A DNA stretch of 64,000 bases from Gammaproteobacteria bacterium. GTDB lineage: Bacteria; Pseudomonadota; Gammaproteobacteria; Steroidobacterales; Steroidobacteraceae. Below the pieces are notes generated by a model. It was not told the origin of the DNA. It did no database searches and was given only the letters and a program-made list of their open reading frames with translations. The stretch lies in the NCBI GenBank assembly GCA_018970145.1, contig JAGWWY010000001.1, positions 248,001-312,000 of the forward strand. The letters are read 5' to 3'. The position numbers and the translations under genes were made by a program. Of the stretch, positions 11,619 to 64,000 are shown piece after piece; within the stretch, counting starts at the first letter, position 1; every line of letters begins with the position of its first letter.

Positions 11619-13103
11619 ATGAGTAGTCATGCGATCGTCATTGGCAGCGGCTTCGGCGGGCTCGCGGCAGCCATTCGTCTCGGCGCGCGCGGCTATCGAG
11701 TGACGGTCCTCGAGCGTCTCGACGGTCCCGGCGGGCGGGGCTATGTCTACCGGCAAGATGGCTACACCTTCGACGCCGGTCCGACGATCATCACCGCGCC
11801 CTATCTTTTCGAGGATCTGTGGCGTCTCTGCGGCAAGCGCCTCGCTGACGATGTCACCTTGCGTTCGATCGATCCGTTTTATGAAGTGCGCTTCGATGAC
11901 GGTGACGTGTTCCGCTACACCTCGGACCTTGCGCTGATGCGTGAGCAGGTGGCGCGCATCGAGCCACGAGACGCCGCCGCGTTCGATCGGTTTCTCGCTC
12001 GCAGCCGTGACATCTATGAGGTCGCATTCCGAGATCTCGCCGAGCAGCCGTTCCACGAAATTGGCACGTTGTTGCGGGCCGCTCCCGATCTCGTTCGGCT
12101 CGGTGGATATCGCTCGGTTTATAGCGAAGTCAGTCGATTTTTCCGCAGCGACAAGTTGCGCACGCTGTTCAGCTTCCACCCGCTGTTGATTGGTGGTAAC
12201 CCGTTTACCACCACTGCCTACTACTGCCTGATTGCGCATCTCGAGCGCAGTTATGGGGTGCACTACGCCGAAGGTGGCATGGGCTCTTTAGTGCGAGGCC
12301 TCGTCGGCTTGATCGAGGGGCAGGGTGGGCAGTTGCGTTACAACGCGCCGGTGGCGGAAATTCTCGTCAAGGCGGGTCGGGCTTGTGGTGTGAGACTCGA
12401 AAGCGGCGAGGTGATCGAATCGGACATTGTGGTCTCGAATGCGGACGTAGCGACGACCTATGGAAAATTATTGGGCTCCACGCCGCGCCGTCGTTGGACC
12501 GATGCGAAGCTCGCTCGCGCCGACTACTCCATGAGTCTATTCGTTTGGTACTTCGGCACTCGTCGACGCTACGACGATGTCTACCACCACACCATGGTTT
12601 TGGGTGCACGCTATCGTGAATTATTGAAGGATATCTTTGAGCGCAAGCATCTTGCCGAAGATTTCAGTTTGTATCTGCATCGTCCGAGCGCGAGTGATGC
12701 GAGCTTGGCGCCTCCCGGATGCGATTCGTTCTACGTCTTAGCACCCGTGCCGCATCTGGATAGCGGCACGGACTGGCGGACGCAGGCCGAGCCGTACCGG
12801 GCGGCTGTGCAACGCCGTTTGGAGTCGACGGTGCTGCCGGGGCTTGGCGATGCATTGACCACCTCGCTGATGCTGACGCCGCTCGACTTTCGAGACCGGC
12901 TTGCCTCTGCGAAAGGCGCTGCGTTCGCGATGGAGCCGAAGCTCTTTCAAAGCGCATGGTTTCGCCCACACAACCGCAGCGAGGAAGTCGAGCGCCTGTA
13001 TCTCGTGGGTGCCGGAACACACCCGGGCGCGGGTCTACCGGGCGTGGTGTCATCGGCAAACCTTCTCGACAAGATCGTGCCGGCGCCGTCTCGTCTTCGT
13101 TAG
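11619..13103 (+). CDS. crtI: phytoene desaturase CrtI
   Basis: A protein of 494 residues, the normal length for bacterial CrtI. The FAD-binding motif VIGSGFGGLAAAIRL is at the N-terminus, followed by the family stretch DAGPTIIT, and the C-terminal signature LYLVGAGTHPGAGLPGVV is intact. It converts phytoene to neurosporene or lycopene at the membrane. The ATG at 11619 follows AGGGGAG with good spacing. It is convergent with crtD. The promoter region carries paired PpsR-like boxes. Confidence 0.95.
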   Translation: MSSHAIVIGSGFGGLAAAIRLGARGYRVTVLERLDGPGGRGYVYRQDGYTFDAGPTIITAPYLFEDLWRLCGKRLADDVTLRSIDPFYEVRFDDGDVFRYTSDLALMREQVARIEPRDAAAFDRFLARSRDIYEVAFRDLAEQPFHEIGTLLRAAPDLVRLGGYRSVYSEVSRFFRSDKLRTLFSFHPLLIGGNPFTTTAYYCLIAHLERSYGVHYAEGGMGSLVRGLVGLIEGQGGQLRYNAPVAEILVKAGRACGVRLESGEVIESDIVVSNADVATTYGKLLGSTPRRRWTDAKLARADYSMSLFVWYFGTRRRYDDVYHHTMVLGARYRELLKDIFERKHLAEDFSLYLHRPSASDASLAPPGCDSFYVLAPVPHLDSGTDWRTQAEPYRAAVQRRLESTVLPGLGDALTTSLMLTPLDFRDRLASAKGAAFAMEPKLFQSAWFRPHNRSEEVERLYLVGAGTHPGAGLPGVVSSANLLDKIVPAPSRLR

Positions 13104-13114
13104 TCAGAGTCCCG

Positions 13115-14614
13115 TTAGTCTAGATCACGCAGCAGCGCTGCTGCGGCAAGTCGGCCCGATAGCGTCGCCATCGGCACACCGGGACCGGGATGCGCGCTGC
13201 CGCCGGCAAGGTAAAGCCCGCGGATGCGGGTGCGTGAATTGGGTCTCGCAAAGCTGGCGAAGGCACCGTGGTTGGCGGAACCATAAAGACTGCCGCCGGT
13301 GGCCGGGAACAATCGTTCGAAGTCCTGCGGTCGGGTGACGACACAGTCGGCGCGTTCTCGCGAGACGTAGAGGCCGTTCGCTGCGAGTTGATCAAAGACG
13401 CGTCGCTGCAGTGGCGGCAGCTCGTCATCGGTCACCCCGCGTTGGTCCCCGTCCGCCGGTGCGTTGACGAGGATCAAGAGTCGCTCGCTCTCGCCCGTCT
13501 GCAGTGGCGCACTCGCTTCACCCCGATCTTGGGCGCACAGGTAGATCGTGGGTCGATCCGTGATGCGGCGCCGTTCAAAGATATCCGAGAACTCTCGTGG
13601 ATAGTCATCACCAAAGAAGACGTTGTGATGTGCGAGATCGAAGCCCTGGGTCGGAGCGTCGATACACCAGGTGACCGCCGAAAGCGCACGATCTGTGCGA
13701 GCACGGGTTTTGACGGCGATGCGAACCTCAGAACCGAGCAGTCCGTCAGCGAGCGCTTGCGTATCGCCGTTGAAGATCACCGAGTCGGCCGGAATGAAGT
13801 TACCATCGTGCAGCTGCACCCCGATGACTCGGCTGTCGCGCACCTCGATTCGTCGGGCTCCAGTGCCTAAACGGATGCTGGCGCCGCAGTGCCTCGCCAG
13901 CGTCGCGAGGGCCTCGGCGACTCGCCGCATACCGCCTTCGACCAGCCACACCCCGCATTGCTCAACGTGCGCGATCAGCATCAAGGTGGCCGGCGCTTGC
14001 AAAGGCGACGAGCCGACATAAGTCGAGTAGCGCGCGAACAGTTGTCGCAGTCTCGGGTCGCGAAAGTGGCTGCCAAGTGCAGCCCACAGGGTGAGCCACG
14101 GCGGTGTTCGCCACATGGCGAGCATGCCGGCGAAGCCGAGTTCGCGCATGAGGCCTGCCGCGCTCGGACGCGGCGCCATCATGAAGGGTTGGCGAAGGCT
14201 CTGGTGCAAGGCGCCGGCGCGATCTAGAAATTCACCAAAGCCTCTTGCGGCCGGTGCCCCGGCGAATTCGCCGATGGCCTCCATCGAGCGCTGGGCGTTT
14301 GCGTGGAGGTCGAGCACCTTGGAGCTGTGGCGCCAGACGTGTCTGGCGAGTAAATCGGCTGGAACCAATTTCAGGTGATCTTCCAGTCGACTGCCGGCAT
14401 CGGCGAACAAAGATTCGAAAACGTGATGCAGGGTAAAGACGGTTGGACCGGCATCGATCGGACGGCCGCGCGGGGCGAGACTACGCAGTTTGCCGCCGAC
14501 CGTTTCGGCACGCTCGACCAGCGTGACTTCGACACCGCGACGCGCCAGGTCGATGCTAGCGGCCAGACCGCCAACGCCGGCGCCGATCACGATCGTACGT
14601 TGGGACTTGCTCAA
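13115..14614 (-). CDS. crtD: hydroxyneurosporene/methoxyneurosporene desaturase CrtD
   Basis: A CrtI-type carotenoid desaturase of 499 residues, with IVIGAGVGGLAASIDL at the N-terminus, DAGPTVFTLHHVFE, and the C-terminal LYLAGGSAHPGPGVPMA signature seen in CrtD. It introduces the 3,4 double bond after CrtC hydration on the spirilloxanthin route. The start is probably the TTG at 14614, which overlaps the stop of the upstream membrane-protein gene as TTGA. Upstream ATGs would add about 65 residues of low-complexity basic sequence. It is convergent with crtI, 11 bases apart. Confidence 0.9.
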   Translation of the reverse strand: MSKSQRTIVIGAGVGGLAASIDLARRGVEVTLVERAETVGGKLRSLAPRGRPIDAGPTVFTLHHVFESLFADAGSRLEDHLKLVPADLLARHVWRHSSKVLDLHANAQRSMEAIGEFAGAPAARGFGEFLDRAGALHQSLRQPFMMAPRPSAAGLMRELGFAGMLAMWRTPPWLTLWAALGSHFRDPRLRQLFARYSTYVGSSPLQAPATLMLIAHVEQCGVWLVEGGMRRVAEALATLARHCGASIRLGTGARRIEVRDSRVIGVQLHDGNFIPADSVIFNGDTQALADGLLGSEVRIAVKTRARTDRALSAVTWCIDAPTQGFDLAHHNVFFGDDYPREFSDIFERRRITDRPTIYLCAQDRGEASAPLQTGESERLLILVNAPADGDQRGVTDDELPPLQRRVFDQLAANGLYVSRERADCVVTRPQDFERLFPATGGSLYGSANHGAFASFARPNSRTRIRGLYLAGGSAHPGPGVPMATLSGRLAAAALLRDLD

Positions 14615-15342
14615 GCTTGCAGGGCGCGTTGTCGCGTGACAGCGTGTCGGTGGTAGAGGATCAGCGCGAGCCCGACGACGAGAGGAATCGACCACAAACC
14701 CGGATGCAGCGCGAGCGCTGGAATCGTGCGTACGGCGCCAAACGCGAAGAATGCGGTATAGACGGAAATTCCAGCACCCACCAGCGCCTTGATATGTTCC
14801 TTCAACCAATCGAGCCGCGCCGGTTGTGGTTTAAAGATGAACCAGAGATTGGTGGCAACCGTGGCGATACCGATGGCGGGCATACCAAGCATCAAAGGTT
14901 CGCCGATCCGTCGTGATTCGACTAGGCAGATGACGGAGGCGAGGACCAGCAGCAGCTGAAGGCCTAGGTTGCGCCATTCGCGATGCCCGCGATGATTCTC
15001 GCGGTGGTGGATGCAAGAGAGGCCATACCACGCGAGATTTACCGTGAGGATGGCGAGGCCAAGCATCATCCAGCCGAAAATCCCGCGCACCCACGCGGCG
15101 TTATCCAAGTGCGGGTGGGTGCCCTGCGGGTCGATCAGCGTGCAGATACTGATACCCACCGCTGCCGCGCCGGTCGCTAGCATGGTTCGGGTAAACACCT
15201 GCCCCCAGCGGCGGTGCAGCGGGCTGCCCTTACGGCCAAGTATCGGTATCCAGAATGCGACGAGGCCGAGGCTGCCGCAGAGGATATGCAGCACCACGAA
15301 GGCGTGAAATAGGGTGGTCACGGGGTCGGTCACCGGCGTCAT
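14611..15342 (-). CDS. DUF2306-like membrane protein coupled to crtD
   Basis: A protein of 243 residues with about seven hydrophobic helices. The N-terminal part (FHAFVVLHILCGSLGLVAF, then KGSPLHRRWGQVF) resembles DUF2306-type predicted membrane proteins, several of whose histidines could bind haem or metal. The start at 15342 is preferred because the upstream in-frame region is basic and runs into the P450 promoter. The stop overlaps the crtD start (TTGA), so both are made from one messenger. This gene is not part of standard carotenoid clusters; its role is unknown. Confidence 0.6.
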   Translation of the reverse strand: MTPVTDPVTTLFHAFVVLHILCGSLGLVAFWIPILGRKGSPLHRRWGQVFTRTMLATGAAAVGISICTLIDPQGTHPHLDNAAWVRGIFGWMMLGLAILTVNLAWYGLSCIHHRENHRGHREWRNLGLQLLLVLASVICLVESRRIGEPLMLGMPAIGIATVATNLWFIFKPQPARLDWLKEHIKALVGAGISVYTAFFAFGAVRTIPALALHPGLWSIPLVVGLALILYHRHAVTRQRALQA

Positions 15343-15363
15343 GCTGCCGATGTCGTCGGCTAG

Positions 15364-15381
15364 TGTAAAGTAGGGTTGACG
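15364..15381 (+). promoter_or_regulatory. single PpsR-like box in the P450 / crtD-operon divergent promoter
   Basis: TGT-N12-ACG, one base from the TGT-N12-ACA consensus, with TTGACG as right arm. It sits in the 40-bp gap between the start of the leftward membrane-protein/crtD operon and the ATG of the P450 gene. No partner box was found at 8-bp spacing, so support is weaker than at bchC or crtI. Confidence 0.4.
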
Positions 15382-15382
15382 T

Positions 15383-16747
15383 ATGTACTGTCCACCTAGA
15401 CCGCAGCCGCTCGCGGCGCTGGTGTCTTTGCTGCGCACAATGGCGCGCGGTGACGGCGACCTGCTGAGTTTGTTGCCGGCCAAGGCCTACAAGGTCGAGA
15501 CCGGTTGGCTAGGCTATTCGCGGCGCTCGATCCTCATCGTCAACGCTCCGGAATTGCTTCGAGACGTACTCACCGATCCGAGCGGCATCTATCCGAAGAA
15601 CGATCTGATGGTCGGTGCGCTCGAGCCCTTGGTCGGCAATTCGATCTTCGTCTCGAGTGGCGCGATCTGGAAGCGCCAACGCCAGATGATCGACCCCGCC
15701 TTTTCGCACATGCGGCTAGGCAAAGCTTTCGTGTCGATGTCGGCGGCGGTCGATGATTATGAGCAGCATTTGGATGAACAGGCGGCGCGTGCGGAGGCGT
15801 TTTCGCTGGATCTGGCGATGAGTCACCTGACCGCAGACATCATTTGTCGCACCGTTTTCTCGACATCTTTGCAGTCGCGAACGGCCGTGGATGTATTCGA
15901 GGCATTTACGGTTTTTGAGCGAACGTGTGCACAGGTCGAGCTGAAGCGACTGATCTTCGACGAACCGTTCGCCAATATCCCGCAACATCCGGTGGTGCTC
16001 GAGGCTTGCGAGCGCATTCGACATCATCTCGGCGATCTGGTCGATACCCATCTGGGTGCGCGCGCCGGCAACTATGACGATATCGCCAGTGCCGTCATCG
16101 AGGCCCGCGACGTCGACACGGAGCAGGGATTCACTCGCAAGGAGTTGCTCGATCAACTCGGCGTGATGTTTCTAGCCGGTCACGAGACGACGGCGAGCGC
16201 GTTGATTTGGGCCTTCATGATCCTCTCGGTGCAGCCGGCGGTGATGGCGCGCGTGCGCAGCGAGGTCGAAGCGGTCGCCGGCGATGGCCCGATCAGTCTC
16301 GAGCAGGTCAGGCGGATGAGCTACGTGCGTAACGTCTTCAAAGAAACCTTGCGACTGTATCCGCCGATCACCTTTATTCCGCGAGTGGCAGCGGAGTCGG
16401 CGCAAATCGGGCGACACCGGGTCAAGCGCGGCGCCATGCTCATGATCGCGCCGTGGACCATTCATCGGCACCGGGATTATTGGCAACACCCGCACGCCTT
16501 CGATCCGGATCGATTCTCGCCGGAACGCGAGCATGAACTCGTGGCGGGGGCCTATCTGCCGTTCGGGCTCGGACCGCGAGTCTGTGTGGGTGCCGGGTTT
16601 GCGCAACTCGAGGCGAGTCTGATCCTCGCGCGGCTGTGCCGTCGTTATGACTTTCAAGTACACGATCTGCAACGTGTGCGACCCGTAGCCCGGTTGACGA
16701 CGCGACCGGCCGAACAATTAAGGATGACCGTCACGAGGCGTTCATGA
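15383..16747 (+). CDS. cytochrome P450 in the carotenoid cluster
   Basis: A complete P450 of 454 residues: C-helix WKRQR (96-100), I-helix AGHETTAS (265-272), ExxR helix ETLR (321-324), DPDRF (375-379) and haem loop FGLGPRVCVG with the thiolate ligand Cys401. It lacks a clear membrane anchor and is not fused to a reductase, so it needs separate ferredoxin or flavodoxin partners, none nearby. It overlaps the ATP-grasp gene by four bases (ATGA), which in turn overlaps crtB, so the three form one operon. The context points to oxidation of a carotenoid or its precursor, but the substrate is inference. It is not CrtA. Confidence 0.88.
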   Translation: MYCPPRPQPLAALVSLLRTMARGDGDLLSLLPAKAYKVETGWLGYSRRSILIVNAPELLRDVLTDPSGIYPKNDLMVGALEPLVGNSIFVSSGAIWKRQRQMIDPAFSHMRLGKAFVSMSAAVDDYEQHLDEQAARAEAFSLDLAMSHLTADIICRTVFSTSLQSRTAVDVFEAFTVFERTCAQVELKRLIFDEPFANIPQHPVVLEACERIRHHLGDLVDTHLGARAGNYDDIASAVIEARDVDTEQGFTRKELLDQLGVMFLAGHETTASALIWAFMILSVQPAVMARVRSEVEAVAGDGPISLEQVRRMSYVRNVFKETLRLYPPITFIPRVAAESAQIGRHRVKRGAMLMIAPWTIHRHRDYWQHPHAFDPDRFSPEREHELVAGAYLPFGLGPRVCVGAGFAQLEASLILARLCRRYDFQVHDLQRVRPVARLTTRPAEQLRMTVTRRS

Positions 16748-17883
16748 CGACGGTGCTATTGACGCTCGGTCGACTTCCCAAAGCGCTCGAGTTGGCGCGC
16801 GCGCTGCAGTCGGCAGGTTGTCGAGTTCTCGTGGCAGAGCCGTTTGCACGCCATGTCGCTGGTGCGTCGCGTGCGGTCGCCCGCAGTTTTGTCGTACCGG
16901 CGCCGGCCGTTGATCGTGAGGGCTACCTGCGATCGCTCTCCGATATCGTCGCCAAAGAAAGCGTCGATGTGGTGTTGCCGGTCTCGGAGGAGATTCTGCA
17001 CGTGGCGTCATTGCACGAGCGGCTGTCCGAGTCTGTCCGAGTCGCTTCGATGCCGCTGATTTCGTTGTTGTCGGTGTACGACAAGCAGGCTTTTATTGTG
17101 CGTTGTCGCGAGGCCGGTCTCGCGGCTCCCGAGACGCGATCGCTCGATCATCCATCGGCCGTTGAGCTCGCGCAAATCGGCCCGACCGTCGTCAAGCCGC
17201 GGCACTCGTGTTCGGGTCGCGGTGTGCAGTTCCTCGCGCGCGGCGTCGCGCTGCCGGCGCTCGATGAGCCTGCGATCGTTCAGTCGTTCGTCCCGGGGCA
17301 GCTGCTCAGCACCTTCGGATTTGCCCGGCACGGCTGCTTAAACTCCACGGTGGTGTATCGCGCCGCGGTTTTGCAGGGCACCGTTGCCGTGTGCTTCGAG
17401 CGTGTCGATGCGCCAGCGGCCGTGCTGGAGTGGGTCGAGCGTTTCGTCGCGCATACCGGTTTCGATGGCTTTGTATCATTCGATTTGATGCTCGATGCAA
17501 AGGGAGTGGTATGGGGCATCGAATGCAATCCACGTACAACCAGTGGGATCCACTTCGTGCACCCGGCGGACCTCGCCCGCAGCGTGCTGCAGCCCGATGA
17601 TCCGCAGCCATGGCGGTTCAAGCCTAGGCGGCTTTTACAGCAGTTTTATCCATGTCTCACCGAAACGCAGGCCTCAATATTCTCGGGGCGCTTCCGCAGC
17701 AATTTGAGAAATCTCCGGCGTGCCCGTGATGTCAGTTGGCGACTCGATGATCCCTGGCCGTTCGTCGGCATGCCTTGGACAGCTTGGCCTATCATCGAGC
17801 GCGCGATCAAAGAACGTTGTACCTTCGGCGAGGTGGCAATGCGTGATTTCGATTGGCGCGGGACAGCGGAGAGCCGCAGATGA
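16744..17883 (+). CDS. ATP-grasp ligase-like protein coupled to P450 and crtB
   Basis: A protein of 379 residues with ATP-grasp architecture: an N-terminal Rossmann-like preATP-grasp domain, a nucleotide-binding lysine in VVKPRHSCSGRG (149-160), and the metal site in FDLMLDAKG followed by GIECNPRTTSG, with Asp247, Glu260 and Asn262 as likely Mg ligands. Family members join a carboxylate to an amine or thiol through an acyl-phosphate. It starts inside the P450 stop and ends inside the crtB start. No carotenoid pathway I know uses such a ligase. A carotenoid carboxyl group made by the P450 is one possible substrate; the substrate is unknown. Confidence 0.75.
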   Translation: MTTVLLTLGRLPKALELARALQSAGCRVLVAEPFARHVAGASRAVARSFVVPAPAVDREGYLRSLSDIVAKESVDVVLPVSEEILHVASLHERLSESVRVASMPLISLLSVYDKQAFIVRCREAGLAAPETRSLDHPSAVELAQIGPTVVKPRHSCSGRGVQFLARGVALPALDEPAIVQSFVPGQLLSTFGFARHGCLNSTVVYRAAVLQGTVAVCFERVDAPAAVLEWVERFVAHTGFDGFVSFDLMLDAKGVVWGIECNPRTTSGIHFVHPADLARSVLQPDDPQPWRFKPRRLLQQFYPCLTETQASIFSGRFRSNLRNLRRARDVSWRLDDPWPFVGMPWTAWPIIERAIKERCTFGEVAMRDFDWRGTAESRR

Positions 17884-18941
17884 CAGCGAAGCTTGCGAGT
17901 GCCGAGGATCTCGAATCCTGCCGTGAGTCGATTCGCGTCGGCTCGAAGACCTTCCATGCAGCCTCGTTCCTGCTCCCCCAACGAGTGCGTGAGCCGGCGC
18001 TGGCACTCTATGCTTTTTGCCGTGAAGCGGATGACGCCATCGATCAATCGGACGATCCGCAGCGCGCATGGGTCGAACTGAACGAGCGTCTCGATCGTTT
18101 GTATCGGGGCGAGCCTATCGATCGCGCTGCCGACCGGGCCATGGCCGATGTGGTCACCGAGTTCCTCATCCCGCAGGCGGTTCCGGCAGCCTTGCTCGAG
18201 GGTTTTGCCTGGGACGCCGCTGGCCGGCGTTATGAGGACTTTCGCAGTCTGCAGGACTACGCAGTCCGAGTGGCAGGCACGGTAGGCATCATGATGTCAC
18301 TGCTAATGGGAGTGCGTGCACCGTGGGCGTTGGCACGCGCGGCTGACTTGGGCATCGCGATGCAATTGTCCAATATCGCCCGAGACGTCGGTGAGGACGC
18401 TCGCATGGGGCGTGTCTATCTCCCGGAAGATTGGTTGCGTGAGGCGAACTCGTCACGTGAAGCGTTACTGGCCGCTCCGGTTTTCAGCCAGTCCTTCCGA
18501 CAAGTCGTTGATCGACTGGTGCATGCGGCAGAAACGCTATACGTGCGAGCTGCAGCCGGTGTCACCGAGCTACCGCCGGAATGTCGGCCGGCGATCCACG
18601 CGGCGCGCTTGATGTATGCCGAGATCGGGCGCGAAGTCATGCGCCGTTCGGGTGATTCCATCTCGCAACGTGCCGTGGTGTCGGGCCGACGCAAGGCACT
18701 CTTGCTCGCGAAAGCGATTTCCGTCACCGCGATCGCCAGCTCACCTCAACACAAGAGTTGGCCGGTGATGCCTGCGGCGGTTTTTTTGCTCGATGCGATC
18801 GCAACACATGATGCGGCGAAAGGAATCGTCCCGGATCCGACGGTTGCCGAGTCGATCTTGACCCGTGATTTGATGCGACTGCTCGGGGTCATCGAGCGGA
18901 TCGAATCGCAGGAGCTGGCAGGCCTAGAGCAGACGACGTGA
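17880..18941 (+). CDS. crtB: phytoene synthase CrtB
   Basis: A protein of 353 residues of the squalene/phytoene synthase family, with aspartate-rich motifs FCREADDAIDQSDD near residue 50 and NIARDVGEDARMGRVYLP. It condenses two GGPP to phytoene. The ATG at 17880 overlaps the stop of the ATP-grasp gene (ATGA); an upstream in-frame ATG at 17853 would overlap that gene by 31 bases and is less likely. The 3' end overlaps the convergent crtC by 18 bases. In most purple bacteria crtB follows crtI, but here it is the third gene of the P450 operon. Confidence 0.95.
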   Translation: MTAKLASAEDLESCRESIRVGSKTFHAASFLLPQRVREPALALYAFCREADDAIDQSDDPQRAWVELNERLDRLYRGEPIDRAADRAMADVVTEFLIPQAVPAALLEGFAWDAAGRRYEDFRSLQDYAVRVAGTVGIMMSLLMGVRAPWALARAADLGIAMQLSNIARDVGEDARMGRVYLPEDWLREANSSREALLAAPVFSQSFRQVVDRLVHAAETLYVRAAAGVTELPPECRPAIHAARLMYAEIGREVMRRSGDSISQRAVVSGRRKALLLAKAISVTAIASSPQHKSWPVMPAAVFLLDAIATHDAAKGIVPDPTVAESILTRDLMRLLGVIERIESQELAGLEQTT

Positions 18942-19919
18942 GCGCACTCGCGGCAGTCTGACCGGTAACAAGGCTCGCACCCATGATGTTGCGAAGCGGG
19001 TCAAAGAGACGCTTTCGTGAAAGCTCTCGACACGCTCTCCCTCGAGGGTCGTTTCAACTAAAGATCGCGAGTAAAACGGCGCGCTCTCCAGCGTCTCGAT
19101 CACCCTAGGTCGGGCGCCATGATCGCAGCGGGTGTGGCGCTCGATGCCCCACAGCGTACTCGGCATCCGCTGGATCGGCGGTTGCGATCCGGCGTGCACG
19201 CTGCCGTCTGCCGCAAATTCCAGTGACCACGAGCGGTTGGGGTGCCCCGCTGCGCCGACCGTGTCATACAGCACGCGTGAACTGCTCAACCCATCTCTGC
19301 TCGACCCATGGCTGCGCGACCAGTTCCAAGCGTCAAAGTCCTCTTCGAGCGGAGCCGAACCCTGATTTGCATCGAGGTAGGCTGCGCCGTGCCATCGGAG
19401 AGCCGGCGCCTCGAACCGAACGCTGATTCGCGCGAGCGGTGCGATCGGCCACCACAGGTGGCGGGCCGCGGCGTCGAGCGGATAAGGAGTGGCGTGTCGG
19501 ACGCTGGGCGTGACTCGAATCTGACCACGCAGCGTTTGCGGCCACGGTGAGGTTCTCTCATCCACGTCGATCTGCAGGGCGTCGCCCTCCCAAGTGACGC
19601 GACTCGGACCGATACTCAACTGATGTGAATGACGCGTCACCGCAGCGGCATCGCGCTCGGTCATAGCCCAGCGACGCCCTTGTCCGCGATAGAGCACCAC
19701 ATTGAGCGCGGAGTGCTGCACCGGATCGACGAGGCCGTGCCGTCGAGCGCGGGCATACCAAGGCGAGAAGACGCAGCCGAGCATCGCGATGACGGTGAGG
19801 CCGTACCGGCCGCAGTCGCTCAGGGCGTCGAGATACCACCAGGCATAGCCATTCGGTGCGAGCGACGCCGCAAAGTCCGGGCCGGTTTGACTCACCACCG
19901 GGTGGTGTCTATATTCCAT
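18924..19919 (-). CDS. crtC: hydroxyneurosporene synthase (carotenoid 1,2-hydratase) CrtC
   Basis: A protein of 331 residues with the CrtC hallmarks GYAWWYLDALS near the N-terminus and GAAYLDANQGSAPLEEDFDAWNW in the middle. It adds water to the psi end of neurosporene or lycopene, the first step towards spirilloxanthin. The ATG at 19919 lies inside a PpsR-like box and has no clear ribosome binding site; GTG codons at 19898 or 19895 are alternative starts. It is divergent from crtE and convergent with crtB. Confidence 0.9.
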   Translation of the reverse strand: MEYRHHPVVSQTGPDFAASLAPNGYAWWYLDALSDCGRYGLTVIAMLGCVFSPWYARARRHGLVDPVQHSALNVVLYRGQGRRWAMTERDAAAVTRHSHQLSIGPSRVTWEGDALQIDVDERTSPWPQTLRGQIRVTPSVRHATPYPLDAAARHLWWPIAPLARISVRFEAPALRWHGAAYLDANQGSAPLEEDFDAWNWSRSHGSSRDGLSSSRVLYDTVGAAGHPNRSWSLEFAADGSVHAGSQPPIQRMPSTLWGIERHTRCDHGARPRVIETLESAPFYSRSLVETTLEGERVESFHESVSLTRFATSWVRALLPVRLPRVRSRRLL

Positions 19920-19949
19920 GACACCATAGTGTGACAATCTGAGCTGACA
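19906..19949. promoter_or_regulatory. paired PpsR/CrtJ-type boxes between crtC and crtE
   Basis: A perfect TGT-N12-ACA (19906-19923) is followed after exactly 8 bp by TGA-N12-ACA (19932-19949), which has one mismatch. The first box covers the annotated crtC start codon. On the minus strand TTGTCA (19937-19932) and TATAGA (19913-19908) could form a -35/-10 pair with an 18-bp spacer. Divergent crtC and crtE would be repressed together. Confidence 0.6.
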
Positions 19950-20014
19950 TTCGCCAGCAATCAGGTTTCCCACGCCGTTTGCTGCGCAGGCGCAGGCATG
20001 AAACAGGTGCAGGT

Positions 20015-20893
20015 ATGAAAAACGCGTCCGGGTCCAGAATCGAGCAAGCCCTCGAAGTGGCGGTCGAGTCGTGTGAGTCGCTCGGTTGCCCGCCGCGTCT
20101 GGCCGCCGCTATTCGCTACGCTGTTTTTCCGGGTGGCGCGCGGATTCGTCCGCGGCTGTGCCTCGCGATCGCCGCAGGCTGTGGTGAGGCGCAATCGGCG
20201 CTCGCTGAGGCGACCGCCGCTTCCATCGAGTTGCTGCACTGCGCGTCGTTGGTCCACGACGATTTGCCGTGTTTCGATGACGCTGAATTTCGTCGCAATC
20301 GACCTTCGGTGCATCGTGCGTTCGATGAACGGATCGCGTTGCTCGTCGGTGATGCGCTGATTGTGCTCGCGTTCCAAAACGTTGCGCGGGCATATGCTCA
20401 GCATCCGGCGCGTTTGCAGGGTGTGGTACTGGCGCTTGCGCGTGCGGCGGGCGCGCCCGGTGGCATCGTCGCGGGGCAGGCTTGGGAGTGCGAGGAGACG
20501 ACGCCGCTCGAGGAGTATCGTCGTCTCAAGACCGGTGCGTTATTTGTGGCCGCGACCGTGGGCGGTGCGCTCTCGGCGGGCGTCGATCCGACGCCGTGGC
20601 GTGAGCTCGGTGAGCGACTCGGCGAGGCCTATCAGGTTGCCGATGATATCCGTGACGTACTCGGCACCGATGTCGAGTTGGGTAAGCCCGCGCATCGCGA
20701 TGCCGAGCTGCTGCGCCCAAGCTGTGTCAACGAATTGGGAGTCGCCGGCGCCGTCGCCCATTTTGAAGCCTTGATTCGCGCGGCCAACGAATGCATCCCC
20801 GACTGTCCCGGCGCCGAATTCTTGCGCGATTTGCTCGATCTCGAAGCACAGCGATTGTTGCCCGCCGCGCTCCTTGAGCGCGTGGCCGCTTGA
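20015..20893 (+). CDS. crtE: geranylgeranyl diphosphate synthase CrtE
   Basis: A trans-prenyltransferase of 292 residues with the first aspartate-rich motif DDLPCFDDAEFRR and the second motif DDIRD. It makes GGPP for carotenoids and for the phytyl tail of bacteriochlorophyll. The ATG at 20015 follows GCAGGT; an ATG at 19979 would add twelve basic residues. It begins the rightward superoperon crtE-crtF-bchCXYZ-pufBALMC, with crtF 37 bases downstream. Confidence 0.93.
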   Translation: MKNASGSRIEQALEVAVESCESLGCPPRLAAAIRYAVFPGGARIRPRLCLAIAAGCGEAQSALAEATAASIELLHCASLVHDDLPCFDDAEFRRNRPSVHRAFDERIALLVGDALIVLAFQNVARAYAQHPARLQGVVLALARAAGAPGGIVAGQAWECEETTPLEEYRRLKTGALFVAATVGGALSAGVDPTPWRELGERLGEAYQVADDIRDVLGTDVELGKPAHRDAELLRPSCVNELGVAGAVAHFEALIRAANECIPDCPGAEFLRDLLDLEAQRLLPAALLERVAA

Positions 20894-20930: not shown

Positions 20931-22061
20931 GTGCAACTACCGGGTTGGCTGCGGAATCGTTGGCGTCGTTGGCGCAACGCGAAACTGCTGGATCCCCTCG
21001 TTCAAAGAAAACTATCCGGCTTTTGGCTGACTCGTCGGCGTGCGCGGCGCGAGGCTGCCGAAACGTTTGATCTGGTTGCCGGTTTCGTCTACTCGCAGGT
21101 GTTACTCGCCTGTCATCGCTTGGGCGTGCTTACGCAGTTGCGCGATGGTCCCATGCCGCATTCTCAATTGTTGTCGAACCTCGAGCTGCCACCAGCGGCA
21201 GGGCTCACCTTGCTTCGAGCCGCCGCGGCGCTGGATTTGCTCGAGAGCGACGAGTCGAATGCTGATGAAGTCACCTGGTGGTTAGGCGTCAAAGGAGCTG
21301 CTCTGCTCGGCAATGCCGGCGCACTCGCCATGATCGAGCATCACGCCGTGCTCTACCGTGATCTCGTCGATCCGGTGGCCTTGTTGCGTGCGCCACGCGG
21401 GAGCAGCGAGCTTGCGCAGTACTGGCCCTATGCCACAGCGGATGCACCCGCGCGTGCCGCACCGCAGCAGATTGGCGCCTACACCACGTTGATGGCGGCC
21501 TCTCAGGGGCTCGTCGCCGACGAAATCCTCGACGCCTACGATTTCAGCCGACATCGCCGCATCCTCGATATTGGTGGTGGCGACGGTACTTTTCTTCGAC
21601 ATGTGCGCGAGCGTGCGCCACAGGCGCAACTCGTGCTCTTCGATCTGCCCGCAGTCGCGGCCGAGGCGGGGCGGCGCTTCGCGGCGGCGAGCGGTGTCGA
21701 GTGTGTAGGCGGTGACTTTGCGCGCGATGCGCTGCCGAGCGGCGCGGATCTCATCACCCTGGTGCGCATCCTGCACGATCACGACGACGAGCTTGCGAAG
21801 TCCTTGTTACATCGCGCGGCAGCCGCGCTCACACCGGGTGGCTGCTTGCTCGTTGCAGAGCCGCTCGCGGGTACGCCGCGGGCCATGCGCATGGGGAACG
21901 CTTATTTCGGGTTGTACCTCTGGGCGATGGGCAGTGGGCGGGCGCGAACGGCCGAAGAATTGAGCGCTTGGTTGCGCGATGCGGGACTCATCGAGATCGA
22001 GGAGCGGGCGACCCGAATTCCCCTGCAAACCCGTTTGATCGTCGCTCGTCGGGCCCGTTGA
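20931..22061 (+). CDS. crtF: hydroxyneurosporene O-methyltransferase CrtF
   Basis: A class I SAM methyltransferase of 376 residues with an N-terminal dimerisation/winged-helix part (VAGFVYSQVLLACHRLGVLTQL) and the SAM motif ILDIGGGDGTFL. It methylates the C-1 hydroxyl made by CrtC to give methoxy carotenoids such as spirilloxanthin. The start is a GTG at 20931 preceded by AGAGGGA. Its position between crtE and bchC is the standard purple-bacterial order. Confidence 0.92.
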   Translation: MQLPGWLRNRWRRWRNAKLLDPLVQRKLSGFWLTRRRARREAAETFDLVAGFVYSQVLLACHRLGVLTQLRDGPMPHSQLLSNLELPPAAGLTLLRAAAALDLLESDESNADEVTWWLGVKGAALLGNAGALAMIEHHAVLYRDLVDPVALLRAPRGSSELAQYWPYATADAPARAAPQQIGAYTTLMAASQGLVADEILDAYDFSRHRRILDIGGGDGTFLRHVRERAPQAQLVLFDLPAVAAEAGRRFAAASGVECVGGDFARDALPSGADLITLVRILHDHDDELAKSLLHRAAAALTPGGCLLVAEPLAGTPRAMRMGNAYFGLYLWAMGSGRARTAEELSAWLRDAGLIEIEERATRIPLQTRLIVARRAR

Positions 22062-48446: not shown

Positions 48447-48482
48447 TGGAAACCATTCCGGGGTTCCGTTAGCGTATGACGG

Positions 48483-48501
48483 TCGCGCCCGCGTCGGGCG
48501 C
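48483..48501 (+). repeat. G+C-rich hairpin in the leader of the TonB receptor gene
   Basis: CGCGCCCG (48483-48490) pairs perfectly with CGGGCGCG (48494-48501) around a three-base loop. It ends seven bases before the AGGGGAG ribosome binding site of the receptor gene, so it could influence ribosome access. There is no U-run, so it is not a standard terminator. Confidence 0.4.
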
Positions 48502-48520
48502 GCCAATAGGGGAGACAGGA

Positions 48521-51013
48521 ATGATCGTTTTCAAGAAGGGAATGACCTCGTTGGTCGCGGGTCTCGCGATCGCGAGTGCGACCGGGACGGCTACTGCGGC
48601 ACCCGATCCGCAAGAATCTCAAGCCACGGGCAGCTTGCTCGATGAGATTGTCGTCACGGCGCAACGCCGCGAGGAGCGCGTGCAAGACGTACCGATCGCG
48701 ATCTCGGCTTTCTCTGCCGATCAGCTCGAGAAACTCAACGTGACCGAGACCCTCGACATGGTCAAGTTGATTCCGAACTTGCTCGGCTTCAACAACACCG
48801 GTCTCGGGACCGCCAACGGCTACTACTTGCGTGGTATCGGCAACACCGAATCCATAGCGACCTTTGATCCGCCCGTCGGCACTTATGTCGATGACGTTTT
48901 CCTGAGTCGCCAGAACGCCAATAATCTCGGCTTGTTTGACGTCGAGCGCATCGAAGTATTGCGCGGTCCGCAGGGAACGCTGTTCGGTCGTAACACCACC
49001 GGCGGTGCGATGAACGTCATCCTGCGCGCGCCGGGCGACGAGCTGGGCGGGTACGTCGAAGCCGGCTTCGGTGAATACAATCAGCGCAGCTTCCGCGGCA
49101 CGATCGATCTGCCGGTGTCAGACACCGTATTGACCAAGCTCTCGGTCTACTCCGTCAAAGACGACGGTTACGTATCGAACCCGATCACCGGCGAAGATGA
49201 CATCAACGCCACCGACACCATGGGTGTACGCGGCTCCATGCGCGTCCTCGTCTCTGATGCCGTAACTTGGGATCTCGCGGCCCAATACTCGCGAGACAAG
49301 GGACTCAACATCCTCAACTTCGCACGCGGTTCAGGTTCCGCCTATCGCGGCGGTGTTGTCGCCAACGGGCTCGTGTCGATTCCGGCGGGCGGTCCACAGG
49401 TTGCGCTCGTACCGCAGCGCGCCGGTCTGGCGCCGACCTCGTCAGGCGCGCAAAGTGTCGAGGCACGCTGCCTTGGCACCGTGACCAGCGATCGCTTCAC
49501 CTGCACGGGTTTGCGCCAAACGGGTACGCCGCTCGCGAACTTGATTACGGGTGACAAGCGCTTCTACAACCTCGGCAATGATGTCGAGAGCACGATGATC
49601 ACCTCGAACATCAAGTGGCAGTCGTCGGTGGGTGAGTTCAGCTTCATCACCGGTTACGTCGATATGTCGCAGAAGTTCGCGATCGACTTCTTCAACGGCA
49701 CCGGCGTGAAGACCGCGACCGGCGGCACGCAGCCAACCAACCCGGTCGGTGGCTTCGTCATCGCCAACGATGGTGAGCACAAACAATTCAGCCAGGAGAT
49801 CAAGCTCACGGGTGAGATTGGCGAGGGTACCCGCTACGTGGCCGGTATGTATTTCTTCGACGAGAAGAACGTGACCGACTTCGCGGATCTCTTCAGTCTT
49901 TCGCCGACGCTGACGCTGGTGCTCGAGGATCGTATCCTCAACAACCGCGCCGATGCGATGGCGATCTACACGCAGTGGGACTTCACGCCGTTCGAGAAGG
50001 CGACTCTCACGGTGGGCGGTCGTTACACCGACGAGACCAAGAAAGTGGCTTTCACCGCGAATGCCGCTCCCGGTATCGCCGCTGCGCCAACCGCTGCAAC
50101 TCGCGTCAACACGGCCAACTTGATCGCCGCTGGTATCCCGTTGGAGCTCGGCACGGCGCTCTTCACACCGCGTATCGCCTTCAAATACGACGTGAGCGAC
50201 GACATGAACGTGTTCGCTTCGGCGACTCGGGGCTTCAAGTCGGGTGGTTGGAACGCGCGCGGCACCGCGCCGGTTGCAAACCAACCGTTTGCACCTGAGA
50301 CGGTGTGGTCCTACGAGTTCGGTCTGCGATCCGAGTGGCTTGATCGCACGCTGCGCTTGAACTTGACGGGATTCATCCTCGACGTCGAAGACCTGCAGAC
50401 GCCCTCGGCATTTGTGGCTCCGAGCGGCGCCATCTCCTTCATCACCCGTAACTTTGCGGGTATGAAGAACAGTGGTTTCGAGGCGGAGTTGATCTACGCG
50501 CCGACGGAGAATCTGAACTTGTTCCTCTTTGCGGGTTCGCAAGACGCCGAGTATCAGGATGTCGCCGCCTCGATCATCGCTCAGCAGACGTCGTGCAAGG
50601 CGGCGATCGCGGGTACCGGTGGTCGTGCGGGTGACTGCAACGCGGGCATCATCAATCCGTCGGGTAATTTCGCTGACCCTGTGCGTGCGCCGGATACCTT
50701 GGCCTTGGGCGCGAGCTACAGCCTCAACATCGGTGAGAACCTGCGTCTGACGCCGAATGTCTTGTGGGCGTACACGGGTGACAACAATGTCGCTACCAGC
50801 GGTGCCCCGGCGGGTCTCGTCGAAGCGTACGACACCCTCGATGCGGGCATCACGCTCGAGAACGCCGCAGGTGGCTGGCGCATTCAGGCGAACTGCCGCA
50901 ACTGCACCGACGAAGTGCAGGTCGTGTCGGTGTTGTCGGATCTTGCCTACATCCAGGCTCCGCGCAGCTGGAACGTGACCTTCAAGTACGACTTCGGCGC
51001 TCGACGCCGCTGA
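48521..51013 (+). CDS. TonB-dependent outer-membrane receptor
   Basis: A protein of 830 residues: signal peptide ending ATGTATA, plug domain with LDEIVVTAQRREERVQDVPIAISAF and the DVERIEVLRGPQGTLFGRNTTGGA segment, then a 22-strand barrel ending FKYDFGARRR. The ATG at 48521 follows GGGGAGACAGG; an upstream in-frame ATG at 48476 would precede a second signal-like start and is not used. It belongs to the large FecA/sphingomonad-like class and probably imports a sizeable or hydrophobic substrate. A strong terminator follows. Confidence 0.92.
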   Translation: MIVFKKGMTSLVAGLAIASATGTATAAPDPQESQATGSLLDEIVVTAQRREERVQDVPIAISAFSADQLEKLNVTETLDMVKLIPNLLGFNNTGLGTANGYYLRGIGNTESIATFDPPVGTYVDDVFLSRQNANNLGLFDVERIEVLRGPQGTLFGRNTTGGAMNVILRAPGDELGGYVEAGFGEYNQRSFRGTIDLPVSDTVLTKLSVYSVKDDGYVSNPITGEDDINATDTMGVRGSMRVLVSDAVTWDLAAQYSRDKGLNILNFARGSGSAYRGGVVANGLVSIPAGGPQVALVPQRAGLAPTSSGAQSVEARCLGTVTSDRFTCTGLRQTGTPLANLITGDKRFYNLGNDVESTMITSNIKWQSSVGEFSFITGYVDMSQKFAIDFFNGTGVKTATGGTQPTNPVGGFVIANDGEHKQFSQEIKLTGEIGEGTRYVAGMYFFDEKNVTDFADLFSLSPTLTLVLEDRILNNRADAMAIYTQWDFTPFEKATLTVGGRYTDETKKVAFTANAAPGIAAAPTAATRVNTANLIAAGIPLELGTALFTPRIAFKYDVSDDMNVFASATRGFKSGGWNARGTAPVANQPFAPETVWSYEFGLRSEWLDRTLRLNLTGFILDVEDLQTPSAFVAPSGAISFITRNFAGMKNSGFEAELIYAPTENLNLFLFAGSQDAEYQDVAASIIAQQTSCKAAIAGTGGRAGDCNAGIINPSGNFADPVRAPDTLALGASYSLNIGENLRLTPNVLWAYTGDNNVATSGAPAGLVEAYDTLDAGITLENAAGGWRIQANCRNCTDEVQVVSVLSDLAYIQAPRSWNVTFKYDFGARRR

Positions 51014-61931: not shown

Positions 61932-62022
61932 AAAAGGGTATTGCAACAGGATTCCTTGACATTGGACGTGCTCGCGGAGAATCTGTCAATGCATCCAATT
62001 CATCCTCCTTATGGAGACATGC

Positions 62023-64000
62023 ATGACCTTCACGAAAGTTTCATCCTTTGTTCAATTTGCGCTGGCTTCGAGCCTCGTTGCGGCAGCTTCATCGGCCGCT
62101 TCTGCGCAGCAGGCCAATGACGAGGCCGTTGCGCTCGAAGAAATCACCGTTACGGCTCAGCGGCGCGAGGAGAGCCTGCAAACCTCGCCGATTGCAATCA
62201 CGGCGATCGATCCGACGATCATCGAACGTCGTCAGATGCTCGACACCAAGCAGGTGGTATTCAACGTTCCCAACCTGACGGGTAACAGCAACGTTGGCCA
62301 AACGACGGCGACGACGTTCTTCATGCGTGCCGTCGGCACCACGGAAAATCTCGCTACGGCCGACACCTCGGTGGGTCTCTACGTCGATGACATCTACGTC
62401 GCTCGTCAAGCGGTCAACAATTTCAATCTCGCGGACATCGAGCGGATTGAGGTGCTGCGCGGCCCTCAAGGCACGCTCTACGGTCGCAACACCAACGGCG
62501 GTGCCATCAAGATCGTCACCAAGAAGCCCTCGGGCGATAGCGAGCTGAACCTGCGTGCCGGCATCGGCAACTACGGTCGTTCCGAGTTCCGCTTGTCGGG
62601 CAACGGTGCGCTCGGTGGTGATCTTTTCGGTCGCGTGAACGTGCTCGTTCAACAAGGCGACGGCATCATCCGCAACACCACGCTCGGTACCGACGTCAAC
62701 GACATGGAGTACCAGGGTGCACGAGTGGCGCTTCGCTACGCGCCGGAAGGCGGCTTCGAAGCGAACTTCGCGTACGATTTCAGCCGAGACGAGACCAACG
62801 GCGGTTATGCCTCGGATATCGCGGGCATCATCCGCCCACGCACGAACAGCTTGTTCAATGTCGTTTCGAGCTACGACAACAAAGGTTTGGCCAAGACCAA
62901 CGGTGGTCATCTGAACTTGAGCTGGCAGCTCGACAACGGCTTCTCGGTGCAGTCCGTCACGGGTTATCGCGATACCTCACAAGACCTGCGCTTGGATCTC
63001 TCCGATCAAGCGCCGACCCGCTACAACTTGTTGCAGCGTCAGGAAAACGATCAGATCTCGCAAGAAGTGCAGACTTCGGGCAATGTCACGGACGCATTGC
63101 GCGTGACGGCGGGCGTCTATTACTTCTCCGAATCGACCGACGTCGTGATGACTGACATCATCGCGCCGAACACTTTCGCCAAGGTGTTCAATGTCGACTC
63201 CTCGAGCACGGCGGCCTTCGGTCAGGTGGAATACACGATCGGTTCGGTCACGCTGCTCGCTGCCGCGCGATACACCAAAGACGAGCGTGACCTCGAGATT
63301 CGTCAGACGAGCTCGATCGCAGGTCCGTTGTTCAACTTCGACACCGCGGCTCTGGTCGCGCGTGGTGCGGCCGGTGCGAACATCAGCCCGAACCGCCGCT
63401 TCAGCGAAGTGACTCCCAAGATCGGTGTGAACTGGGAGATTAATGAAGACCTCTTCGCGTATGCCTCCTACACCGAGGGTTTCCGCTCGGGTGGTTGGTC
63501 AGGTCGTGCGGTGCGCTCGGATCAGTACGTCAACTTCAACCCGGAGAACGTCGAGTCGTGGGAGATTGGTGTCAAAGCCACTCTCGCGGATGGACGCGCC
63601 CGTTGGAATAGCTCGGTCTTCCGCATGGATTACACCGATCTGTTTAACACCCTCGTTGTGAATAACATTTGGGCGGTGCAGACAGCTGATGCGCAGATCC
63701 AAGGTCTCGAAAGCGAGTTGACGGTTCGCGCCAATGCGAACCTCGACCTGTTCGCCAACGTCGGTATTCTCGACACGGAGTACGTCGGCACCAAGCCGGT
63801 GAACCTCGCGAGTGATCTGCAACGTGCGCCGAAGTTTCAGGGCAAGGTGGGTGCGTCATTCAACTACCCGCTCTCGGGCGGCACGTTGCTCATCAACGGC
63901 GATGTGTTCGTCACGGATGACTACATCGTCTCGCCCGCCAATCTGTCGTTCACCGCGCCGGCGCTGCCGAAGGGCGTGAGCTTGGTGAAGGCCTTTGAAC
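62023..64000 (+). CDS. TonB-dependent outer-membrane receptor (partial, runs off window)
   Basis: An open frame of 659 codons without stop up to the window end. The signal peptide ends SSAASA, then the plug has LEEITVTAQRREESLQTSPIAITAI and ADIERIEVLRGPQGTLYGRNTNGGA, then barrel strands including YTEGFRSGGWSGRA. The ATG at 62023 follows GGAGACATGC. It is similar in class to the receptor at 48521 but not a close duplicate. Divergent from the second IclR gene, so probably inducible by the catabolic substrate. Confidence 0.92.
   Translation, partial: MTFTKVSSFVQFALASSLVAAASSAASAQQANDEAVALEEITVTAQRREESLQTSPIAITAIDPTIIERRQMLDTKQVVFNVPNLTGNSNVGQTTATTFFMRAVGTTENLATADTSVGLYVDDIYVARQAVNNFNLADIERIEVLRGPQGTLYGRNTNGGAIKIVTKKPSGDSELNLRAGIGNYGRSEFRLSGNGALGGDLFGRVNVLVQQGDGIIRNTTLGTDVNDMEYQGARVALRYAPEGGFEANFAYDFSRDETNGGYASDIAGIIRPRTNSLFNVVSSYDNKGLAKTNGGHLNLSWQLDNGFSVQSVTGYRDTSQDLRLDLSDQAPTRYNLLQRQENDQISQEVQTSGNVTDALRVTAGVYYFSESTDVVMTDIIAPNTFAKVFNVDSSSTAAFGQVEYTIGSVTLLAAARYTKDERDLEIRQTSSIAGPLFNFDTAALVARGAAGANISPNRRFSEVTPKIGVNWEINEDLFAYASYTEGFRSGGWSGRAVRSDQYVNFNPENVESWEIGVKATLADGRARWNSSVFRMDYTDLFNTLVVNNIWAVQTADAQIQGLESELTVRANANLDLFANVGILDTEYVGTKPVNLASDLQRAPKFQGKVGASFNYPLSGGTLLINGDVFVTDDYIVSPANLSFTAPALPKGVSLVKAFE

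Follow-up and report, generated by a model that had tools for sequence, protein, structure and literature searches.

What are a cytochrome P450 and an ATP-grasp ligase doing amid the carotenoid genes of a photosynthesis gene cluster? The question is raised by a 64,000-nucleotide stretch of DNA (hereafter the window) from contig JAGWWY010000001.1 of a 2.43-Mb gammaproteobacterial draft genome (Steroidobacteraceae; GCA_018970145.1), which carries pufLM; the G+C content of the window is 61%. Here a P450 of 454 residues (15383..16747, plus strand) is followed by an ATP-grasp protein of 379 residues (16744..17883, plus strand), while a 243-residue membrane protein, henceforth memb (14611..15342, minus strand), diverges from the P450 across 40 bp (15343..15382). 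Together these genes make up a conserved module of phototrophic proteobacteria, which two separate lines of gene linkage connect to the synthesis of acyclic carotenoids. We propose that the trio is a carotenoid-tailoring module in which oxidation comes first and ligation second, a reading to which we assign a probability of about 0.55.

Conservation was assessed at P450 loci taken as the best 80 of 331 confirmed stretches in the named collection of one-genome-per-species assemblies, two of which (L095 and L101) come from one metagenome-assembled genome (MAG). Partners present at these loci are memb in 77 of 80, the ATP-grasp gene in 75, crtI in 60, crtD in 59 and any of six crt genes in 71. 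As to the three loci lacking memb, one is cut at a contig end (L130), the genome of another carries memb elsewhere (L102), and for L085 none was found. The five without the ATP-grasp gene likewise include one cut at a contig end (L072) and one with a copy elsewhere (L094); no ortholog was found in the genomes of L124, L127 and L145. The window's own arrangement, with memb divergent and the ATP-grasp gene following the P450 on the same strand, accounts for 50 of the 80 loci. In 19 the ATP-grasp gene lies downstream on the opposite strand, in three it lies on the memb side, and eight have other arrangements or lack a partner at the locus. The trio, in other words, is maintained as a group even where its layout differs. 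Of the 76 loci with memb upstream of the P450, 51 have crtD and nine have crtI as the neighbour recognised next to memb. The loci nearest to the window belong to metagenome assemblies titled Steroidobacteraceae, Nevskiaceae, Gammaproteobacteria or proteobacterium, two of them with evidently wrong species titles; titles that appear to be wrong for phototroph MAGs are Klebsiella pneumoniae (L066, L074), Roseomonas mucosa (L117) and Asaia bogorensis (L145).

A preliminary description of the window had presented three genes, for a complete P450, an ATP-grasp protein with intact sites and CrtB, as one unit between crtD and crtC, linked through two ATGA overlaps. The intact P450 and ATP-grasp genes and both overlaps, at 16744-16747 (P450/ATP-grasp) and 17880-17883 (ATP-grasp/crtB), are confirmed from the window sequence. 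Between crtD and the P450 sits memb, which is part of the conserved unit and had been overlooked. As a general partner crtB does not hold up: of 75 loci, 21 have it within 1 kb downstream of the ATP-grasp gene in the same orientation, and at 20 of 80 the ATP-grasp gene itself, though downstream of the P450, is encoded on the other strand. The crtB join is a local feature; what is conserved is the group formed by memb, the P450 and the ATP-grasp gene, for the most part with crtD and crtI next to it. The P450/ATP-grasp overlap, on the other hand, is no accident of the window genome, because 36 of 51 same-strand pairs have a start overlap (an ATGA start in the ATP-grasp frame in 26, a GTGA or TTGA start in 10 more).

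Distribution ties the trio to phototrophy. In 98 genomes, comprising the window's own and 97 relatives, the P450 (E ≤ 1e-179), memb (E ≤ 1e-88) and the ATP-grasp protein (E ≤ 1e-46) occur in exactly the same 26, the next matches, in other genomes, being at 6e-58, 2.5e-34 and 1.2e-11, respectively. Wherever a clear ATP-grasp ortholog occurs among these relatives, 26 in number, the P450 is present too. Twenty of the 26 are found among the 24 genomes of the window's genus, in which the full trio is thus common. A pufLM match is present in 25 of the 26 trio genomes versus 5 of the 72 others (Fisher's test, 2.5e-17, a value that overstates the case because related genomes are not independent); the sole trio genome without one is a 77%-complete draft (G010). 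In the named collection, pufLM was found in 48 of 50 P450-bearing genomes. This search covered 50 of 60 intended loci, the ten left out (L084, L104, L106, L110, L115, L128, L129, L136, L143 and L144) all having bchX in the locus; L066-L083 and L130 were excluded from the set, their genus being covered by the 98 genomes, and L142 (G143), the same genome as G043, was counted in both sets. The two genomes without a pufLM match are a Halieaceae MAG with the full trio (L122, G128) and a Neomegalonema MAG with the P450 and memb only (L124, G129), drafts in which this absence may reflect incompleteness. Occurrence of the pair in non-carotenoid genomes, which the preliminary description had regarded as telling against its proposal, was not seen: L124 has crtI in its locus, and crt genes of L122 were sought at the locus only. 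In a sample of 337 genomes from the class to which Rubritepida flocculans belongs, with at most five first-look candidates scored per genome, the P450 (E ≤ 1e-180) was detected in four, including the genome on which the sample was centred, all within the 23 pufLM genomes. These pufLM findings support a near-restriction to phototrophs. In 17 pufLM genomes lacking the P450 (5/5 relatives and 12/12 alphaproteobacteria), memb was not found.

A second linkage to acyclic carotenoids is independent of the trio. Two alphaproteobacterial cousins of the P450 (L163:6905-9054 and L164:6755-8846; 56% and 49% identical over the matched part) immediately follow crtA. The CrtA matches score 290.6 and 308 bits; with the cut-off at 300, one of them falls just short. 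These cousins are an independent tie of the P450 to acyclic carotenoids, and possibly point to a further tailoring step, as yet unstudied, that acts on carotenoids of the spheroidene type. In the two genomes memb was not found, nor was an ATP-grasp relative at the two loci. A CrtA search of 50 entries (44 module-type P450 entries from 43 distinct genomes, G275, the two crtA-linked genomes and three P450-less phototrophs) found CrtA in both crtA-linked genomes, and in neither the module-type entries nor G275; the absence from module carriers is only suggestive, because the three P450-less controls are also without CrtA. The carotenoid reading of the preliminary description is supported in part: the crt genes in 71 of 80 loci, the cousins behind crtA and the near-restriction to phototrophs speak for it, and its choice of crtB as partner is not supported.

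A tree of 87 P450s, rooted with P450s of genomes without pufLM, places the crtA-linked pair outside the 81 module-type P450s (support 97/98). The tree is rough, with several long branches and an unsettled bootstrap. The next branch unites L145 and L162, which have memb and no ATP-grasp gene in the locus, weakly with L102 (89/53); the main group follows. We read this as accretion of the module, with the P450 probably first, then memb, then the ATP-grasp gene, and with the last presumably lost again in Neomegalonema. Three drafts with P450 and memb (G129, G132 and G144) yielded no detectable ATP-grasp ortholog, in line with the order proposed in the preliminary description; because of them, oxidation probably precedes ligation, and the gene content suggests that the P450 reaction does not depend on the ligase. 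The P450s of Rhabdaerophilum, a Beijerinckiaceae MAG and a Hyphomicrobium MAG (L109, L113, L141) fall inside Roseomonadaceae/Acetobacteraceae clades, a placement that suggests horizontal transfer of the module. Around the sister P450s (E ~1e-122; L159-L161, genomes without pufLM), the queried crt, bch, memb and ATP-grasp genes were not found.

The window protein belongs to the P450 superfamily by its PF00067 match (232 bits, cut-off 22.8), cysteine haem ligand, ExxR motif and I-helix threonine. In an alignment of the window with 79 loci (sequences of at least 80% of full length), Cys401, the haem ligand within FGLGPRVCVG, as well as Glu321, Arg324 and the I-helix Thr269 are invariant in 80/80. 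Members of one P450 family share about 40% identity or more. With the P450 encoded on a plasmid of Thermus thermophilus HB27, which we take to be CYP175A1, identity is 26.1% over 87% of the query, outside that family limit, and a CYP175-type ring hydroxylase was rejected as the primary reading. Also rejected was rhodopinal synthesis, which is known from anaerobes, to which an O2-using P450 is ill suited.

The partner is an ATP-grasp protein by its PF02655 match (28.0 bits, cut-off 23.2), its conserved residues and its fold. Lys114, Lys151, Asp247, Glu260, Asn262 and Arg264 are invariant in 73/73 aligned sequences (72 loci and the window, at least 80% of full length). The predicted model (mean pLDDT 87.6) is closest in fold to PylC (E 5.4e-15), with 2pn1, PurK-type enzymes and L-amino-acid ligases near, yet identity is 18% to PylC and 16% and 13% to two L-amino-acid ligases. 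Sequence profiles match 2pn1, carbamoyl-phosphate synthase and one putative ATP-grasp protein, and the score against NCBIfam PRK06849 (216.2 bits) is below that family's cut-off of 406. ATP-grasp enzymes form an acyl phosphate that is passed to an amine, a thiol or, more rarely, a hydroxyl; PylC and the L-amino-acid ligases are carboxylate-amine ligases. By analogy, either a carotenoid acid would be amidated or a small acid would be placed on a hydroxyl made by the P450, and we do not choose between these options. Second ATP-grasp copies, 46-47% identical, occur away from pigment genes in G067 (L058:8993-10126) and G080 (L060:8969-10102), flanked by two short, mutually similar open reading frames (ORFs); their neighbours, seen as ORFs without a family scan, are uninformative. 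In a plasmid collection, identity to the ATP-grasp protein is at most 35% among the 20 matches listed out of 22. Distant relatives (30-35%) on Rhizobiaceae and Roseateles plasmids (L063:7956-15292, L064, L065) lie near a Rieske protein and genes partly annotated as GNAT acetyltransferase, CoF synthetase, MBL hydrolase and ketoacyl-ACP synthase III, a region that is an uncharacterised biosynthetic cluster. In a Rhodobacteraceae MAG (L121:5560-6706) the ATP-grasp gene is split into two pieces in different ORFs, through gene decay or sequencing error.

The third member, memb, resembles DUF2306 weakly, with 18 bits on its N-terminal part against a cut-off of 31.6, and falls outside that family. 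Its predicted model (mean pLDDT 93.3) has about seven long helices, and a fold search with it returned nothing among solved structures at E ≤ 0.001; the plasmid collection held no match to memb. Four histidines (His19, His43, His76 and His183) show no variation across 29 aligned sequences and would suit the binding of a metal, haem or quinone.

Several known pigment systems come close to the module. To our knowledge, the spirilloxanthin pathway (CrtE, B, I, C, D and F), whose crt set surrounds the module, contains no P450 or ATP-grasp step. CrtA, the spheroidene monooxygenase, carries out O2-dependent tailoring of acyclic carotenoids, as is proposed for the P450. CYP175A1 of Thermus and CYP287A1 of Deinococcus are likewise P450s of pigmented bacteria, but act on ring end groups. 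CYP287A1, which is set apart here by its description only, is a carotenoid 2-beta-hydroxylase according to the available part of the source (PMC11306087). In the available parts of a 2023 review of purple-bacterial carotenoid genes (PMC10604819), CrtA is not a P450, the spirilloxanthin pathway is given without a P450 or ATP-grasp step, and the steps to rhodopinal, glycosylation and fatty-acid esterification are described as unknown, with no P450 step named. The excerpt available of a Citromicrobium paper names a P450 in a figure legend on genes around the photosynthesis cluster, with neither a function nor the pair (PMC3338782). Consistent with the preliminary description, no purple-bacterial pathway with a P450/ATP-grasp pair was found among the literature matches listed, in a coverage that takes in few subscription journals.

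The two reactions, their order, the product and its role may be pictured as follows. Carried along with the photosynthesis genes, the module would tailor an acyclic C40 carotenoid of the spirilloxanthin series. To judge from the linkage, the P450 would use O2 either to add a hydroxyl to the carotenoid or to oxidise a methyl group on it, with memb perhaps holding the substrate or bringing electrons. Both ends of spirilloxanthin are methoxylated, so the C-2 carbon and the methyl groups are the remaining targets. In a second step, suggested by family chemistry and absent in some lineages, the ATP-grasp protein would activate a carboxylate with ATP and couple it to an acceptor: an amine if the carboxylate belongs to the carotenoid, or the new hydroxyl if it comes from a small acid. 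As the chromophore would be little changed, the pigment should look spectrally like spirilloxanthin and yet be more polar. It may form part of the carotenoid stock found outside the antenna complexes in some aerobic phototrophs. In its most extended form, the proposal is that an unreported three-gene pathway is shared by phototrophs of three proteobacterial classes (Alpha-, Beta- and Gammaproteobacteria): spirilloxanthin-series carotenoids would be oxidised by a P450 working on a dedicated membrane partner and then conjugated by an ATP-grasp ligase to a new class of polar amides or esters, spectrally like spirilloxanthin and part of an unbound photoprotective pool; this version is put forward tentatively, as the odds are rather against all of its parts holding.

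Several observations weigh against a carotenoid-tailoring role. Among 22 alphaproteobacterial phototrophs other than the centre of that sample, the P450 is present in three and missing from 19; of these three, two carry the P450 behind crtA and the third, which has memb as well, lacks an ATP-grasp gene in the locus, and since none of the three shows the full trio in its locus, the latter is a minority trait among alphaproteobacterial phototrophs. Likeness to CYP97 enzymes was dropped as proof of carotenoid chemistry. The best match of the window P450 among solved structures is the plant carotenoid hydroxylase LUT5 (presumably CYP97A3; 184 bits), whose substrates are cyclic carotenoids, but a second, unlinked P450 of L100, about 30% identical to that of the window and used as control, also matches LUT5, with 151 bits and in second place, so that the likeness is general and weak evidence. 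A plain spirilloxanthin profile, which the preliminary description had expected to count against its proposal, is half realised: 'Ca. Phycosocius spiralis' (L123; PMC10008586) and Chromatocurvus halotolerans (L140; PMC3679898), both with memb, P450 and ATP-grasp gene in the locus, are reported in the available text to contain spirilloxanthin, from extract spectra alone, which cannot exclude a polar, end-modified derivative. Lastly, in L105, L107, L121 and L133 the recognised neighbour is bchP and not a crt gene, with pucC and bchG also present in L107, and in L116, L119, L122 and L135 the neighbours scanned, which are not all of them, are not photosynthesis genes. Both settings are compatible with another substrate; as the trio is still found together in them, they also argue for a working unit.

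That substrate might be another lipid of photosynthesis, such as the phytyl chain of bacteriochlorophyll or a quinone, the crt genes being adjacent merely because all share the photosynthesis cluster. The bchP-, pucC- and bchG-linked loci would fit, as would pufLM in 48 of 50 carriers; however, crtD or crtI is the recognised neighbour of memb in 60 of 76 loci, and the cousin P450s stand behind the gene of an acyclic-carotenoid oxygenase, and we therefore hold this account to be improbable. About as improbable, in our judgement, is a division of labour in which P450 and memb act on carotenoids and the ATP-grasp protein serves some other acid or amine, linked to them by shared regulation alone. 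It draws on the drafts without a detectable ortholog, on the unlinked ATP-grasp gene of G107 and on the paralogues in G067 and G080, but has to accommodate an ATP-grasp distribution that coincides with that of the P450 (the same 26 genomes out of 98), an overlapping start in 36 of the 51 pairs on one strand, and the persistence of the gene beside P450 and memb at the four loci where other neighbours are non-photosynthesis genes. Still less credible is a module for clean-up, in which photo-damaged carotenoids are oxidised by the P450 and the ligase marks apocarotenoid acids for removal: the use of O2 by an enzyme of organisms described as aerobic phototrophs, and a ligase whose fold would suit carboxylate substrates, could be accounted for in this way, the rest being speculation, whereas the linkage to crtI and crtD and the local start overlap with crtB fit synthesis better. 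Carotenoid tailoring by oxidation and then ligation remains the reading we prefer.

The surroundings of the trio in the window agree with a spirilloxanthin-type gene set. The carotenoid part of the photosynthesis cluster reads crtI(+), crtD(-), memb(-), P450(+), ATP-grasp(+), crtB(+), crtC(-), crtE(+), crtF(+). The phytoene desaturase gene crtI (11619..13103, plus strand; TIGR02734, 608.1 bits) and the 1-hydroxycarotenoid 3,4-desaturase gene crtD (13115..14809, minus strand; NF045637, 656.5 bits) exceed their cut-offs; as the latter match starts at residue 73 of the ORF, the true start of crtD lies inside it. The phytoene synthase gene crtB (17880..18941, plus strand, with ATG at 17880) matches PF00494 with 228.6 bits, above the Pfam cut-off, and NCBIfam CrtB with 380.6 bits, below the cut-off of 500, and the carotenoid 1,2-hydratase gene crtC (18924..19973, minus strand; NF045922, 253.2 bits) is likewise below its cut-off of 400. 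A crtE-like prenyl diphosphate synthase gene (19979..20893, plus strand; PF00348, 140.5 bits) and a crtF-like O-methyltransferase gene (20931..22061, plus strand; PF00891, Methyltransf_2, 130.4 bits), the latter named from position and family, have NCBIfam matches under the cut-off. The window thus holds the spirilloxanthin set crtI, crtD, crtB, crtC and crtF, with crtI and crtD alone above NCBIfam cut-offs; a CrtA match, which a spheroidene pathway would call for, is absent from the window's genome. Elsewhere in the window, two large ORFs (48476-51010 and 62011-63999) have N-termini that, to judge by a sequence motif, presumably resemble those of TonB-dependent receptors.

The gap between memb and P450 in the window contains TGT-N12-ACG, one base off TGT-N12-ACA, which we take to be the PpsR-type motif. 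Sixteen of 79 loci have TGT-N12-ACA near the P450 start, where the density across whole loci would predict 2.1, and 12 of 60 have it against 1.5 expected from mononucleotide shuffling; the stricter TGTC-N10-GACA is found in 6 of 79 against 0.9 expected. The sites of L072-L074 may lie in coding sequence. These counts lend weak support to a putative PpsR-like operator, weak for the window as well, where the match is the one-base-off site. TGT-N12-ACA occurs eight times in the window, including at 19906, 22104 and 40850, one of these three being in the gap before bchC.

For the biology of these phototrophs, the trio offers genetic markers that go together with photosynthesis in nearly all carriers sampled, one of them encoding a co-conserved membrane protein that matched no family above its cut-off. 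If our proposal is true, an ATP-grasp ligase would enter carotenoid chemistry, of which targeted literature searches found no description, and a range of phototrophs, including some from lakes, the sea and hot springs, would make a carotenoid that pigment surveys read as spirilloxanthin. As far as the available excerpts go, Sediminicoccus strain KRV36 has excess membrane carotenoids outside its complexes (PMC10949492), and Congregibacter litoralis contains unidentified polar pigments, one kind of which its authors judged unlikely to be a carotenoid (PMC2654016). The module would provide a genetic handle on an old question, namely the nature and the making of the polar, unbound carotenoids of aerobic phototrophs.

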